In this document: one piece after another, positions 1 to 8,501 of the stretch | How the letters are laid out: every line of letters starts with the position of its first letter | How positions within the stretch are numbered: position 1 is the first letter of the stretch | From: Fimbriimonadaceae bacterium | Lineage (GTDB): Bacteria > Armatimonadota > Fimbriimonadia > Fimbriimonadales > Fimbriimonadaceae | Reading direction: 5' to 3' | DNA: 8,501 nucleotides | Assembly: GCA_019694835.1 (NCBI GenBank) | Contig: JAIBBE010000046.1 | Location: 1-8,501 of the forward strand | Notes under the pieces: model-generated | Told to the model about the DNA's origin: nothing | What the model saw: only the letters and a program-made list of their open reading frames with translations | Database searches by the model: none | Made by a program: the position numbers and the translations under genes

Positions 1-239
1 CGTTCGGCGCAGCAGTTGATGGCGCAGCCGATCACCTGTTCAAGGTTACGAACCCGCGCCGCGTCATGGCGTTCATCTACAACAACACCGAGCTTCGAGT
101 GAAGAACGTTACTTCACCGTCGAGCGGCGGAATTGGAACGACCGTCTACACGCTGGACCCCGAGTTCGCAGCTACGAGCACACCGGGCGGCCCAGTCTGG
201 CCCGCACCGTTTGATGCCTTCGCGCCGCTACCGCGGTAA
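1..239 (+). CDS. C-terminal part of an unrecognised protein, paralogous to the gene at 8139-8501
   Basis: An open frame enters from the left edge (first full codon at position 3) and ends at TAA 237-239, giving 78 residues. I do not recognise the family. Visible blocks are NPRRVMAFIYNNTELRVKN, TSPSSGGIG, TLDPEF and a proline-rich end PAPFDAFAPLPR. The same blocks occur in the same order in the minus-strand gene at 8139-8501: NPRRAM, TELRVKN, TSPNSGGIG, TLDP, PAPFDAFPPLPR. The two are therefore paralogues sharing at least this C-terminal domain. That conservation, the clean stop and the terminator just downstream make it a real gene. No membrane segment or catalytic motif is visible in this fragment. 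The function is unknown and the start lies outside the window. Confidence 0.8.
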   Translation, partial: FGAAVDGAADHLFKVTNPRRVMAFIYNNTELRVKNVTSPSSGGIGTTVYTLDPEFAATSTPGGPVWPAPFDAFAPLPR

Positions 240-5095: not shown

Positions 5096-5289
5096 CCCCC
5101 GTGGCGCGGCCGTCCCGCCCGCGCTGAACAAGAATACCAAGGTTGCATCGGCTTCTCGGGATGCCCCAGCGTACCTGATAGGGTTCGACGGACTCGAGCC
5201 GGCGGGACCACTAGCATCCCCCAACTTGGAACTTGTTCACCTCCTTCGAGGCTTCCCCAGCGCGGCCGTGACGGCCGCGCCACAGGGGG
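5096..5289. repeat. Nested imperfect inverted repeat between the LamG gene and thrS
   Basis: This 240-bp gap between genes is mostly one large palindromic structure. Outer arms: CCCCC 5096-5100 with GGGGG 5285-5289. Next, a 26-base block at 5101-5126 (starting GTGGCGCGGCCGTC) recurs inverted at 5258-5283 with 24 of 26 matches. Further in, GAACAAG 5126-5132 pairs with CTTGTTC 5232-5238, CCAAGGTTG 5137-5145 faces CAACTTGG 5222-5229, and GGGATGC 5158-5164 pairs with GCATCCC 5214-5220. The apex GGTTCGA 5182-5188 pairs with TCGAGCC 5194-5200. The right arm has about 20 extra bases, including a perfect Shine-Dalgarno-like AAGGAGGTGA on the minus strand. It may be a non-autonomous mobile element or a structured RNA. 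A 42-codon frame inside it (5217-5089, minus) has no convincing support. Confidence 0.7.
5258..5283 (-). terminator. GC-rich hairpin directly after thrS
   Basis: The 9-bp arm GCGCGGCCG (5260-5268) pairs perfectly with 5272-5280 around a TGA loop, and flanking CCCC/GGGG can extend it. On the minus strand it begins about 6 bases after the thrS stop. No T tract follows, so it is not a canonical intrinsic terminator. It may still stop or stabilise the thrS transcript. The same block is repeated inverted at 5101-5126, so it may belong primarily to the repeat element. Confidence 0.4.
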
Positions 5290-7137
5290 TTAGCCGAGCT
5301 TGCCGACGAAGTCGGCAAAGCTCATCGCACCAAGGTCGCCGTCTTCGCGCGACCGCACTCCGACCGTGCCCGCCTCCATATCCCGGTCTCCCACAATCAG
5401 CATGAAGGGGACTTTCATCTTCTGGTTCTCGCGGATCTTCTTGCCGAGCGTTTCGCGGCGGCGGTCGATCTCGACTCGATATCGGGCACCGATCGGGGCG
5501 ATACCAAACGAATCGGGATCGGCCGCGCCCTCATATTCGGCGATGTTCAGACCCGGAGTCGGGAAGCCCTGCAACGCACGGGCCAACGCCTCGGCGTAGC
5601 CAACGTGCCGATCCGAAATCGGTAGCACGGCGACTTGCACGGGCGCAAGCCAGAGCGGGAAGGCACCGGCGTAGTGCTCCGTGAGCAGGCCGACCATGCG
5701 GTCCATCGAGCCAAACGGGGCGCGGTGGATCATGATCGGGCGGTGGGGCTTGCCGTCCTCGGCGATGTACTCGAGGTCGAAGCGCTCGGGCAGGTTGTAG
5801 TCGACCTGCACCGTCCCCATCTGCCAGTCGCGTCCGATGGCGTCCTTGATCAGCAGGTCGAGCTTCGGGCCGTAAAACGCGGCGTCTCCGGGCGAAATCT
5901 CGTATTCGAGGCCCATCTTGTCGCACGCGGCCTGGATCGCCTTCGTCGCGGCGTCCCAATTCTCGTCGTCGCCGACATACTTGTCGCTGGCCGGGTCCTT
6001 CGTTCCGAGGCGGGCGCGGTAGTCGCTGAGGCCAAGCTTCTTGAGCACGACTTGCATCAACTCCACGACGCCAATGAACTCGTCGAGGAGCTGATCGGGG
6101 CGCACAAAGAGGTGCGCATCGTCCTGCGTGAATCCACGGCAGCGCATGATGCCGTGGACTTCGCCGCTCTGCTCGTAGCGATGGACCGTCCCGAACTCAG
6201 CGAGCCGGACGGGCAGGTCGCGATAGCTCCGCATGTGCGAGGCATAGATCTCGATGTGGAACGGGCAGTTCATCGGCTTGAGGATGTACGTCTCGCGATC
6301 TTCATCCTCCATGAACGGGAAAAGCTTGTCCTTGAACGTGATGATGTGCCCGGACTTCTCGAAGAGCTTGATGCTGGCGAGTTGGGGCGTGACGACAGGT
6401 TGGTAGCCTCGCTTAACCTGCTCGTCGCGCAGGAAGTCCATCATCGTCTCGCGCAGGACCGCGCCCTTAGGCAGCCACAGCGCGAGGCCGGGGCCGACCT
6501 TGGGCGACCACATGAACAGCCCGAGTTCGCGCCCAAGCACACGGTGGTCGCGCTTCTTGGCTTCTTCCAGGAAGTGCAGGTACTGCTCAAGCTCGTCCTT
6601 CTTCTCGAAAGCCGTGCCGTAGATGCGCGTGAGTTGCTTGTTCTTCACGTCGCCGCGCCAATAGGCACCAGCAAGCGACATCAGCTTGAAGTGCTTGATC
6701 TCGCCCGTGTTCTCCACGTGAGGTCCGCGGCACAGGTCGATGAACCGGTGCGAGCCGTTCTTCTGGTCGTAGAAACTGACTTCCTCACCCTCGGGGACGG
6801 CGTCGAGAAGTTGGAGCTTATACAGCGCCGTGTCTTCGCCCTGCCCGAGCGTGCACTCTTCGAGAATGATCTTGCGAGCCTCGTCGCGGTTGGCGGCGAC
6901 CTTTCGCTCGATGGGCATTTTTAGCCCCGAAAGCTCGCGCATCTTCTCTTCGATGCGCACCAGATCATCGTCCCCAATCTTCTCATCGAGATCGATATCG
7001 TAGTAGAAGCCATTCTCGACGGGGGGGCCGATGGCCAACTTGACGCCAGGATAGAGTTCGGTGAGCGCCTGAGCCATCAGGTGGGCGGCGGAGTGCCGAA
7101 GACGATAAAGATAGCTCTGTTCGTAAGACTCGCTCAT
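5290..7137 (-). CDS. thrS: Threonyl-tRNA synthetase, form without TGS domain
   Basis: Charges tRNA-Thr with threonine and edits mischarged serine. The 615 residues start directly in the editing region: HSAAH (His15, His19) and CRGPH (Cys136, His140) form the editing site. The class II core carries the zinc/threonine ligands Cys291 (MNCPFH), His342 (DDAHLF) and His471 (MIHRAPFGSM). The C-terminal anticodon-binding domain begins near WLAPVQVAVLP (about 506). The usual N-terminal TGS domain of about 60 residues is missing. It is not hidden upstream: the frame meets a stop at 7231-7233 and has no alternative ATG or GTG start. Within the anticodon domain about 20 residues (roughly 531-550, NIAEYEG...GIAPIG) are inserted before RYRVEIDRRRETLGKKIRE compared with E. 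coli ThrRS. A GGGAGGAG site fixes the start at 7137. The leader is short and has no T-box. The editing and catalytic residues are intact, so the enzyme should be functional. Confidence 0.97.
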   Translation of the reverse strand: MSESYEQSYLYRLRHSAAHLMAQALTELYPGVKLAIGPPVENGFYYDIDLDEKIGDDDLVRIEEKMRELSGLKMPIERKVAANRDEARKIILEECTLGQGEDTALYKLQLLDAVPEGEEVSFYDQKNGSHRFIDLCRGPHVENTGEIKHFKLMSLAGAYWRGDVKNKQLTRIYGTAFEKKDELEQYLHFLEEAKKRDHRVLGRELGLFMWSPKVGPGLALWLPKGAVLRETMMDFLRDEQVKRGYQPVVTPQLASIKLFEKSGHIITFKDKLFPFMEDEDRETYILKPMNCPFHIEIYASHMRSYRDLPVRLAEFGTVHRYEQSGEVHGIMRCRGFTQDDAHLFVRPDQLLDEFIGVVELMQVVLKKLGLSDYRARLGTKDPASDKYVGDDENWDAATKAIQAACDKMGLEYEISPGDAAFYGPKLDLLIKDAIGRDWQMGTVQVDYNLPERFDLEYIAEDGKPHRPIMIHRAPFGSMDRMVGLLTEHYAGAFPLWLAPVQVAVLPISDRHVGYAEALARALQGFPTPGLNIAEYEGAADPDSFGIAPIGARYRVEIDRRRETLGKKIRENQKMKVPFMLIVGDRDMEAGTVGVRSREDGDLGAMSFADFVGKLG

Positions 7138-7150
7138 GATTTCTCCTCCC
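7138..7150 (-). promoter_or_regulatory. Strong ribosome binding site of thrS
   Basis: On the minus strand GGGAGGAG (complement of 7143-7150) lies 5 bases before ATG 7137. It decides the start and supports the absence of an N-terminal TGS domain. Confidence 0.85.
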
Positions 7151-7182
7151 TGACCAAGGGACTGGGTTGTATGTGAGCGAAA

Positions 7183-7211
7183 AGTATACCCGGTTGCGGT
7201 CGATGAACCGG
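7183..7211 (-). promoter_or_regulatory. Candidate thrS promoter
   Basis: On the minus strand TATACT (complement of 7183-7188) is one base from the consensus -10 box and would give a leader of about 40 bases. The -35 position (near 7206-7211) reads CCGGTT, a poor match, so the promoter is weak or relies on an activator. The palindromic element at 7247-7442 begins just upstream of it. Confidence 0.45.
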
Positions 7212-7246
7212 AACTTTGTCGTAGAATAGTCTAGTCGCTGATCTGC

Positions 7247-7442
7247 TAGCCCGCGCCCCTCCCTGTCCCTCCCCCGATTCGGGAGAGGGGACTCTCGCGA
7301 TAACGACACCTTGGGGCAAAGCCCTTCCGACACTGCCAGCGTCCAAGCCCTCCGATTTCTTCAAGCTATCGAACCCGCTGATCGATCTCAATCAAGTCCC
7401 CTCTCCCGGCACGGGGGAGGGACAGGGAGGGGGCGCGGGCTA
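7247..7442. repeat. Palindromic MITE-like element, copy A
   Basis: This 196-bp element has terminal inverted repeats of 47-48 bases: 7247-7293 begins TAGCCCGCGCCCC, and 7395-7442 is its reverse complement except for one extra C and the loop bases. Each arm contains TCCCTGTCCCTCCCCC followed by CGGGAGAGGGGACT, so each arm can itself fold into a small hairpin. The inner part shares ACGACACC, TGGGGC and GATCGATC (7380-7387) with copy B, in the same order and direction, which shows a common origin. It is bounded by TA on both sides. It has no coding capacity of its own and sits about 60 bases upstream of the thrS -10 box. Confidence 0.85.
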
Positions 7443-7501
7443 TCACTTCATCGAAGCTCACCATGTCGTCGCCCAAACCCTAAATCAGGTAAATCAAAAG
7501 C

Positions 7502-7897
7502 ATGCTCCGCAACCCGAACCGCGAGGCGACCGAGAAGGCGCGCAAGCTCCGAAAGGGCTTGAGCGAGTCGGAACGCATTCTTTGGAAGCGATTGCGAGGC
7601 CACGGCGTCGGCTTCCATTGCCGGCGCCAAGTGCCGGTAGGCACTTACGTGTTGGACTTCTACGTTGATGAAGCCAAACTCGCCATTGAAGTCGATGGCG
7701 ACCTTCATTGCGAACCCGAGAGAAGAGCGCGGGACGCGGTTCGAGACGCCTATCTCGCCAGTCGCGGTGTCGAGACACTCAGGGTGCCCACGTCCGAGCT
7801 TTACGAGTCGCTCGATGCGGTCGTCGAGGTCATCTATCGCCGATGCTGCGAACGGGTCAGGTCGCGATCCCTTTCCCGGACCGGAAAGTCCGCGTGA
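7502..7897 (+). CDS. DUF559 (Vsr-like, PD-(D/E)XK) endonuclease domain protein
   Basis: A 131-residue protein made almost entirely of the DUF559 domain, related in fold to the very-short-patch-repair (Vsr) and PD-(D/E)XK nucleases. The family pattern runs: ARKLRKGLSESERILWKRLRG (13-33) with the conserved Glu-containing helix, FHCRRQVPVGTYVLDFYVDEAKLAIEVDGDLH (38-69) with the likely metal ligands Asp52, Glu63 and Asp65, and RDAYLASRGVETLRV (81-95). The C-terminal tail is Arg/Ser-rich (RSRSLSRTGKSA). Family members are predicted DNA endonucleases; a defined target is not known to me. ATG 7502 precedes the domain, but the ribosome site is weak. A palindromic element lies on each side, and the next gene downstream is convergent. 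It stands alone, with no methyltransferase partner such as a Dcm that would suggest true Vsr function. Confidence 0.85.
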   Translation: MLRNPNREATEKARKLRKGLSESERILWKRLRGHGVGFHCRRQVPVGTYVLDFYVDEAKLAIEVDGDLHCEPERRARDAVRDAYLASRGVETLRVPTSELYESLDAVVEVIYRRCCERVRSRSLSRTGKSA

Positions 7898-7917
7898 TGC
7901 GGCGTCGTGATGTGAGT

Positions 7918-8141
7918 TAGCTCTGGTTGAACGCGAGCGCCCCCTCCCTGTCCCTCCCCCGTACCGGGAGAGGGGACTCATGCGAACACGACACCCTGGG
8001 GCCAAGTCATCTGATCATTGGAGGTCTCCGAACCTACCCATCCACCGCAGAACTACCGAACCCACGGATCGATCCCAATCAACTCCCCTCTCCCGGGACG
8101 GGGGAGGGACAGGGAGGGGCGCTCGCGTTCAACCAGAGCTA
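7918..8141. repeat. Palindromic MITE-like element, copy B
   Basis: This 224-bp element has terminal inverted repeats of about 60 bases: 7918-7978 begins TAGCTCTGGTTGAACGCGAG, and 8082-8141 is its reverse complement apart from one C and a few loop and inner-edge bases. The inner TCCCTGTCCCTCCCCC / CGGGAGAGGGGA blocks, ACGACACC, TGGGGC and GATCGATC (8067-8074) are shared with copy A. The outer ends are different from copy A, yet match each other. The middle (about 8005-8055) is diverged between copies. Its right end coincides with the TAG stop codon of the gene at 8139-8501, and its left end is 20 bp after the DUF559 stop. Confidence 0.85.
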
Positions 8142-8501
8142 CCGGGGTAGGGGTGGGAACGCGTCGAACGGAGCCGGGAATGTCGGCTGGCTCGGCCACG
8201 TCGTATTCGCCATCATCGGGTCCAGCGTCGTGATCAGGCTGCCGATACCACCAGAGTTCGGCGACGTGATGTTCTTCACGCGCAGTTCGGTCTCGGTGTT
8301 GAGGAAGCACATTGCCCGCCGTGGGTTGCGGACGGTGAACTCAGCACCGGTCGTGCCATCAATTGCGGCACAGCACGGATTGTTCGCATTCAGCTGCTGC
8401 GTGATGAAGGCACCAAGTGCTGCCTGAGTTCGCTCGTCGCGGAGGAGCTCAACCTGATCGGTAAAGCCGCCGTCGAAGCTGCGTGCGAACGCAATGTAGT
8501 A
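8139..8501 (-). CDS. C-terminal part of an unrecognised protein, paralogous to the left-edge gene
   Basis: A minus-strand frame enters from the right edge and ends at TAG 8141-8139, giving 120 residues. I do not recognise the family. Visible segments: YYIAFARSFDGGFTDQVELL, then ERTQAALGAFITQQLNANNPCCAAIDG, NPRRAMCF, TELRVKNITSPNSGGIG, TLDP and PAPFDAFPPLPR. The last five blocks align without ambiguity to the C-terminus of the gene at 1-239, and the stops fall at the same place. The AAIDG segment corresponds to AAVDG there. The N-terminus lies outside the window, so a signal peptide cannot be judged. The stop codon is shared with the end of palindromic element B, which presumably inserted just behind the gene without harming it. 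Confidence 0.8.
   Translation of the reverse strand, partial: YYIAFARSFDGGFTDQVELLRDERTQAALGAFITQQLNANNPCCAAIDGTTGAEFTVRNPRRAMCFLNTETELRVKNITSPNSGGIGSLITTLDPMMANTTWPSQPTFPAPFDAFPPLPR

Follow-up and report, generated by a model that had tools for sequence, protein, structure and literature searches.

The window analysed here, a stretch of 8,501 nucleotides from a Fimbriimonadaceae bacterium (GCA_019694835.1, contig JAIBBE010000046.1), carries a DUF559 nuclease gene lying between two related palindromic elements, E1 upstream and E2 downstream (Table 1). It is well supported that DUF559 genes and the repeats that flank them form one mobile unit, and we infer that the nuclease probably acts on these repeats. 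The basis for this reading lies in other genomes: the pairing of gene and repeats, a common arm layout, the occurrence of no-repeat, repeat-only and filled alleles and the presence of similar units at unrelated loci. The association between DUF559 genes and repeats was measured throughout in genomes other than that of the window.

A DUF559 Gene Between Two Homologous Repeat Pairs

The two elements, each of about 190 bp, are homologous and point the same way, with 153 of 191 aligned bases identical (80%). They are direct repeats, and the layout of the locus is therefore repeat pair, gene, repeat pair. The inverted arms are 38 nt long and 92% complementary in E1, 36 nt long and 97% complementary in E2. 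Folding of E1 and E2 as single-stranded DNA gave z scores of -8.6 and -13.8 against dinucleotide shuffles, and in neither case did any of 200 shuffles equal the element. The gaps are 56 bp between E1 and the gene and 20 bp between the gene and E2. The preliminary description of this locus had claimed two related inverted-repeat elements around the gene, almost no spare sequence and no transposase. The first two points agree with the figures just given and so does the third with the domain content, no transposase domain having been detected in the nine open reading frames (ORFs) of the window scanned with Pfam.

The similarity between the two flanks of the gene scored 79 in direct and 39.5 in inverted orientation, values matched by 0.14% and by none, respectively, of 1480 random intervals. 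The layout X-spacer-X-loop-X' is present in both elements (8-nt blocks, at most one mismatch). The gene is a free-standing ORF between two repeats, not within an intron or intein, no Rfam family matching positions 7100-8300 at E ≤ 1.

The outer stem of E2 is common to E1 at its inner end only. The outer stems 7235-7259 / 7430-7454 (E1) and 7918-7943 / 8116-8141 (E2) are unlike each other and each self-complementary, as if the elements sat in different palindromes or had copied their own flanks in inverted form. Such differing outer stems were not visible by eye in the Methylocystis repeat copies that we viewed.

Flank-to-Flank Similarity at Many DUF559 Loci

Three genome sets were drawn evenly and not by repeats, comprising 200, 97 and 148 genomes of phyla that we take to be Pseudomonadota, Myxococcota and Desulfobacterota, respectively; the DUF559 loci sampled were the best-scoring ones of each set. 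The score limit of 18 was chosen after a random-interval control (99th percentiles 16.0 and 15.5) and kept thereafter. Shared flanks were found at 15 of 28 DUF559 loci in Pseudomonadota, at 18 of 29 in Desulfobacterota and at 8 of 10 in Myxococcota (L208-217, Pfam E ≤ 1.3e-18), as against 0/20 for the weak, mostly long Myxococcota matches (L218-237, E ≥ 4.6e-10, frames of 283-493 aa except L220 with 116 aa), this strong/weak split having been made after the flank scores were known. Among control genes of the same 200 genomes, PIN genes had no shared flanks (0/27, Fisher p 4.6e-6 against 15/28) and Y1 transposases had them at 3 of 19 loci. Loci that were too short were left out (3/30 for PIN, 11/30 for Y1 and 1/8 for Y1 in the repeat-chosen set described below), as was L179, which has no DUF559 frame. 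The counted frames include long ones, the longest measuring 709 aa from stop to stop, and we therefore do not claim that these genes are standalone.

When genomes were instead chosen by their repeats, DUF559 was present in 13 of 15 and similar sequence stood on both flanks at 25 of 30 loci, two of the five negative loci (L141 and L142) being long proteins. All of the further DUF559 loci from the genus Methylocystis had shared flanks (20/20). The counts from the three evenly drawn sets, set against those of the PIN genes, bear out the enrichment of DUF559 genes near repeats envisaged in the preliminary description.

Divergent Repeats With a Common Arm Layout

The repeats vary between genomes, yet their arms have in common the layout X, short spacer, X, loop, X', in which block X is frequently CCCTCNCCC or CCCCC. 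We recovered this layout at 15/28 DUF559 loci in Pseudomonadota, 3/10 in Myxococcota and 22/29 in Desulfobacterota, at 16/30 loci of the repeat-chosen genomes and at 13/20 further Methylocystis loci, compared with 1/27 PIN, 2/20 weak DUF559 and 1/19 Y1 loci; some layout matches look like chance (L205 upstream, L210 and L409).

The DUF559 repeats resemble the triplex motifs (BoxC, PIT and TM_ECO) of PMC4666352, as far as the accessible part of that paper describes them, in the order stem, loop, stem, 3 nt, stem with CCCTCNCCC-type blocks, in forming inverted pairs and in being intergenic. By layout they belong among its intrastrand triplex motifs. The exact TM_ECO pattern was not found, the window arms having, by eye, CCCTCCC before TGT and not CCCTCNCCC. 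According to the same accessible part, these repeats have been on record since the 1990s and amount to 3610 copies in 262 proteobacterial genomes, 23 of them in Escherichia coli K-12, with no function assigned, genome instability at the motifs and no mobility gene reported near them; in the accessible main text the words endonuclease, nuclease, Vsr, DUF and ycjD are absent. Our account differs from that one in proposing a nuclease partner for the DUF559 repeats.

A pattern derived from the arms matched at least 120 genome-contig stretches, mostly of Methylocystis, and the matches listed also included Rhodoplanes, Pseudolabrys, Acetobacteraceae, Xanthobacteraceae, Geomonas and a Myxococcales metagenome-assembled genome. 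A DUF559 frame was present at 10 of 120 repeat loci among the matches listed, and the matched arm overlapped this frame or lay at most 14 bp away in eight of the ten loci and more than 2 kb away in two. A looser arm pattern gave 11 to 119 matches per genome (G001-G007, about 4 Mb each).

The link was also visible at the level of whole genomes. The pattern CNCCCYAACCCTCNCCC occurred at least twice in 24 of the 200 Pseudomonadota genomes, with a maximum of 147 (read backwards, it had 9 matches among the matches listed). DUF559 (best E ≤ 1e-10) was present in 18 of these 24 genomes versus 29 of the 176 others (p 1.2e-8), and Y1 transposase (E ≤ 1e-3) in 15/24 versus 104/176 (p 0.83), p values that ignore kinship, as the 200 genomes are related to varying degrees and no tree was used. 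Y1 had no match in 11 of the 15 repeat-chosen genomes. Two minor observations concern these families: G078, G152 and G244 have a triplex-type repeat and neither a strong DUF559 nor a Y1 match, and Y1 loci with similar flanks in repeat-bearing genomes are L151, L153, L155 and L158.

Filled, Repeat-Only and Repeat-Free Sites in Methylocystis

DUF559 was detected in 29 of 39 Methylocystis genomes, with 1-7 matches per genome. The site 3' of cysS was matched in 38 of the 39, and 30 loci were classified, 14 of them being inspected in sequence. Ten had a DUF559 gene oriented as cysS, three a reversed one, one a fragment and 16 none. At this site L306 has a short gap with no repeats, L305, L307, L323 and the more divergent L302 have the repeat pair alone, and L298 and L312 have repeat, DUF559, repeat, the latter continuing into a partial second DUF559. 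Relatives with the whole unit or an empty site, which the preliminary description had considered, thus exist as no-repeat, repeat-only and filled alleles. Both reversed genes that were inspected (L301 and L325) had a different repeat family. Target-site duplications were not discernible by eye at the cysS site, where L303 and L317 are truncated by contig ends. Tandem arrays of repeat pairs adjoin cysS in L325 and L303, with about four pairs before DUF559 in L325 (by eye).

The site upstream of guaA was matched in 35 of the 39 genomes. Among 30 classified loci, 11 had a full DUF559 gene, three a broken or partial one and 16 none (12 of these 16 were inspected). The broken or partial genes at the guaA and cysS sites, seen in L334, L347, L350 and L308, suggest gain and decay. 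In L310, L314, L328, L332, L333, L336, L342 and L348, from other Methylocystis genomes, the gap at cysS or guaA contains a different repeat, of the CATGGCCGGGCTTGTCCCGGCCAT type.

Similar units were also found at unrelated places. L126 and L159 lie in unrelated host loci and have 633 bp in common that are 87% identical, reaching from the left pair of repeats to within the right arm, their DUF559 proteins being 91% identical. Over 660 pairs of Methylocystis loci that are not orthologous, repeat similarity correlated with DUF559 identity (rho 0.18), a value reached in 1 of 5000 permutations, or 0 of 5000 with same-genome pairs excluded; 137 of 3240 pairs had been removed as same-locus, and the locus pairs are non-independent, which the permutation test answers only partly. 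A repeat was common to 81% of the 26 pairs with at least 60% identity, to 50% of the 14 pairs with 55-60% and to 2.7-10.9% of pairs in the identity classes below 55%.

The ycjD Gene of Escherichia coli

YcjD of E. coli K-12 is a DUF559 protein (PF04480, E 1.4e-49). The published triplex copy no. 9 (1,351,204-1,351,239) sits between fabI and ycjD, and the last codons and stop of ycjD lie, by eye, inside a second half-copy, ACCCTCTCCCTGAaagagcgaggggg. Among 5426 E. coli genomes, ycjD (at least 80% coverage) was present in 3364 and a TM_ECO-like 36-mer in 5364, at 1 to 32 places each. UTI89, an O157:H7 strain and CMZE087 were considered as carriers of an empty ycjD site and rejected: a TetR/efflux gene group follows fabI there, in the position that ycjD has in K-12, and there is therefore no clean empty site. 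In E. coli ETEC6 (NZ_CP041627; H6, H165) ycjD is interrupted by IS1, and the one E. coli among 14 control genomes had no PF04480 match.

Proposed Mechanism

We propose that the mobile unit consists of repeat pair, nuclease and repeat pair, and that it would work like a REPtron, with the place of the transposase taken by a small PD-(D/E)XK nuclease of the Vsr / EDxHD homing-endonuclease fold. DUF559 would recognise the folded arm, that is, a hairpin plus an adjacent second copy of one half-stem, which could in principle shift or form a triplex, and would presumably cut there or at a site marked by the arm. Host recombination would then copy the unit between repeats, leaving a directly repeated copy of the repeat pair on either side, and the gene-less repeat pairs would be its dispersed, non-autonomous form. 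As the pairing recurs in distant bacteria, it suggests that DUF559 is the missing partner that helps these repeats to spread.

The preliminary description had raised a system in which a DUF559 endonuclease cuts or processes palindromic repeats, similar in logic to a homing endonuclease or to the pairs formed by repetitive extragenic palindromic (REP) sequences and their REP-associated tyrosine transposases (RAYT). The pairing and the analogy hold because of the flank enrichment, the genome-level link and the no-repeat, repeat-only and filled sites; the cutting or processing itself is only what we infer.

The likeness to REPtrons extends to a small gene bordered by palindromic repeats, as in the window, to dispersed gene-less inverted pairs and to the existence of several repeat families, each associated with a separate lineage of the gene. 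In contrast to REPtrons, the window ORF between the repeats encodes a PD-(D/E)XK DUF559 and not an HUH Y1 protein, the arm has a duplicated half-stem, and Y1 presence was unrelated to the triplex-type repeats in the 200 genomes. The definition of REPs includes GTAG at the palindrome foot (accessible parts of PMC3733652 and PMC8266576), a motif absent from the four window arms. The DUF559 unit would thus work like a REPtron but is not one, because it lacks both the Y1 transposase and GTAG at the palindrome foot. The EDxHD enzyme I-Bth0305I, in the accessible part of PMC3943268, is a multi-domain protein whose dimer forms on a target almost 60 bp long, unlike the window DUF559, which is a bare catalytic domain beside multicopy repeats. 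Among the open-licence PMC papers that our searches listed and that we consulted, we found none linking DUF559 to palindromic or triplex-type repeats.

It is conceivable, with the balance tilting somewhat to the other side, that these units constitute a new class of mobile element in which a bare Vsr-fold DUF559 reads a triplex- or hairpin-forming repeat, homes into it and spreads gene-bearing and gene-less pairs free of any transposase. If true, this would account for the triplex repeats in several phyla, E. coli BoxC included, with YcjD as the enzyme, would provide a transposase-free route for repeat spread and could help to explain the genome instability at triplex motifs mentioned in the accessible part of PMC4666352. 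Linking DUF559, which has no listed function, with triplex repeats, which have no assigned one, makes both testable in E. coli K-12.

Contrary Observations and Alternative Explanations

Several observations weigh against a mobile unit in which the nuclease acts on the repeats. Shared flanks were not detectable at 13/28 Pseudomonadota and 11/29 Desulfobacterota DUF559 loci. Windows shifted within the Pseudomonadota DUF559 loci were positive in 25 of 280 cases (these overlap and can catch the same repeats), and in the repeat-chosen genomes 4 of 7 evaluable Y1 loci had shared flanks as well. The left repeats are missing from L123, which nevertheless retains DUF559 at 89% identity. The repeats of ycjD are on the 3' side only, and this gene failed the two-flank test (scores 8.5 and 9.0). 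G078, G100, G152, G186, G218 and G244 hold at least two repeats and no strong DUF559 match. A repeat-only site may be the scar of a DUF559 loss and not a target. Finally, the accessible part of PMC12907096 argues for a role of a Caulobacter DUF559 protein in mismatch repair.

The alternative that survives best, although we hold it to be improbable, is that another enzyme moves the repeats and that DUF559 is cargo using the flanking repeats as recombination arms. It would fit the 6 of 24 repeat-bearing genomes without DUF559 and the excess of repeat copies over DUF559 genes, illustrated by the 10 of 120 loci among the matches listed. However, the link is to one enzyme family across several phyla with divergent repeats, the repeat type co-varies with DUF559 relatedness, and Y1 transposase, the known REP mobiliser, has no genome-level link.

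It is somewhat less probable still that DUF559 serves the host in a Vsr-like, structure- or mismatch-directed repair, the repeats resulting from its activity or regulating it with no joint mobility. Besides the Vsr fold of DUF559, this would agree with the finding that Caulobacter cells without the ScmA methylase depend on VsrA, a DUF559 protein, for their DNA damage response (PMC12907096, accessible part). Unlike Vsr and VsrA, the window DUF559 is bordered by repeats, with no cytosine methyltransferase among the nine ORFs scanned with Pfam. Against such a role stand two marks of mobility, namely that one site has both filled and empty alleles and that unrelated loci carry similar units, together with the 1-7 matches per genome in 29 of 39 Methylocystis genomes.

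The last two alternatives have very little in their favour. Chance or safe-haven co-location, in which intergenic gaps take up repeats and DUF559 genes alike, would accommodate the unrelated repeats in the same Methylocystis gaps (L310 and L314; L328, L332, L333 and L336) but was already disfavoured by the PIN genes, for shared flanks and layout alike, and by arms that often abut or overlap DUF559 gene ends. It is just as improbable that a Y1 HUH transposase encoded at another place in the genome mobilises the repeats as REPs: the palindromic arms in REPIN-like inverted pairs and the shared flanks at Y1 loci of repeat-chosen genomes would be expected, but not the lack of Y1 matches in most of those genomes, of a Y1-repeat association in the 200 genomes, of the layout at 18 of 19 Y1 loci and of GTAG in the window arms.

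The DUF559 Protein and the Neighbourhood of the Unit

Pfam lists DUF559 as a family of unknown function. The window protein has the Vsr-type / EDxHD homing-endonuclease catalytic fold, and its residues D52, E63, D65, H69 and D78 are invariant in an alignment of 25 proteins. NCBIfam and PADLOC gave partial or below-cut-off matches only, and PDB profile matches of E 0.06 or worse were put aside as chance. Tails resembling translated arms were found in the protein database in 10 of 25 DUF559 proteins versus 0 of 120 thrS homologues, the tail expression having been composed after viewing DUF559 tails and the 25 including the window's own, tail-less protein. A search for DUF559 relatives by protein in genome contigs returned 41 pattern stretches, none of them confirmed, and plasmids and phages gave no DNA similarity match to the window unit.

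Table 1. Positions in the window of the repeat elements, the nuclease gene and the adjoining host genes.
Feature	Positions	Strand	Remarks
thrS, host gene adjoining the unit	5290..7137	-	
E1, upstream palindromic element, REPIN-like inverted-arm pair	7247..7445	.	~190 bp
E1 left arm	7256..7293	+	layout X-TGT-X-loop-X': CCCTCCC-TGT-CCCTCCCCC-GATTC-GGGAGAGGG
E1 right arm, inverted copy of left arm	7395..7432	-	
DUF559 nuclease gene	7502..7897	+	131 aa; PF04480, E 8.4e-25
E2, downstream palindromic element, direct repeat of E1	7918..8141	.	
E2 outer stem, left half	7918..7943	+	perfect 26-nt inverted repeat
E2 left arm	7941..7976	+	layout X-TGT-X-loop-X'
E2 right arm, inverted copy	8084..8119	-	
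E2 outer stem, right half	8116..8141	-	
Host ORF without Pfam match, convergent with the unit	8139..8501	-	stop codon at E2 end

The thrS gene indicates that the host is probably a member of the Fimbriimonadaceae: among its 120 homologues listed, of which the nearest are 91% and 82% identical, every organism name given is Fimbriimonadaceae, Fimbriimonas or Armatimonadetes, except for a single 'bacterium'. A further inverted repeat (5096-5126 / 5258-5288, 31 nt, 90% complementary) lies just past the 3' end of thrS. The ORFs at the two window ends, 3-239 (+) and 8139-8501 (-), belong to no Pfam family and look by eye like paralogues (VTNPRRVMAF / VRNPRRAMCF).
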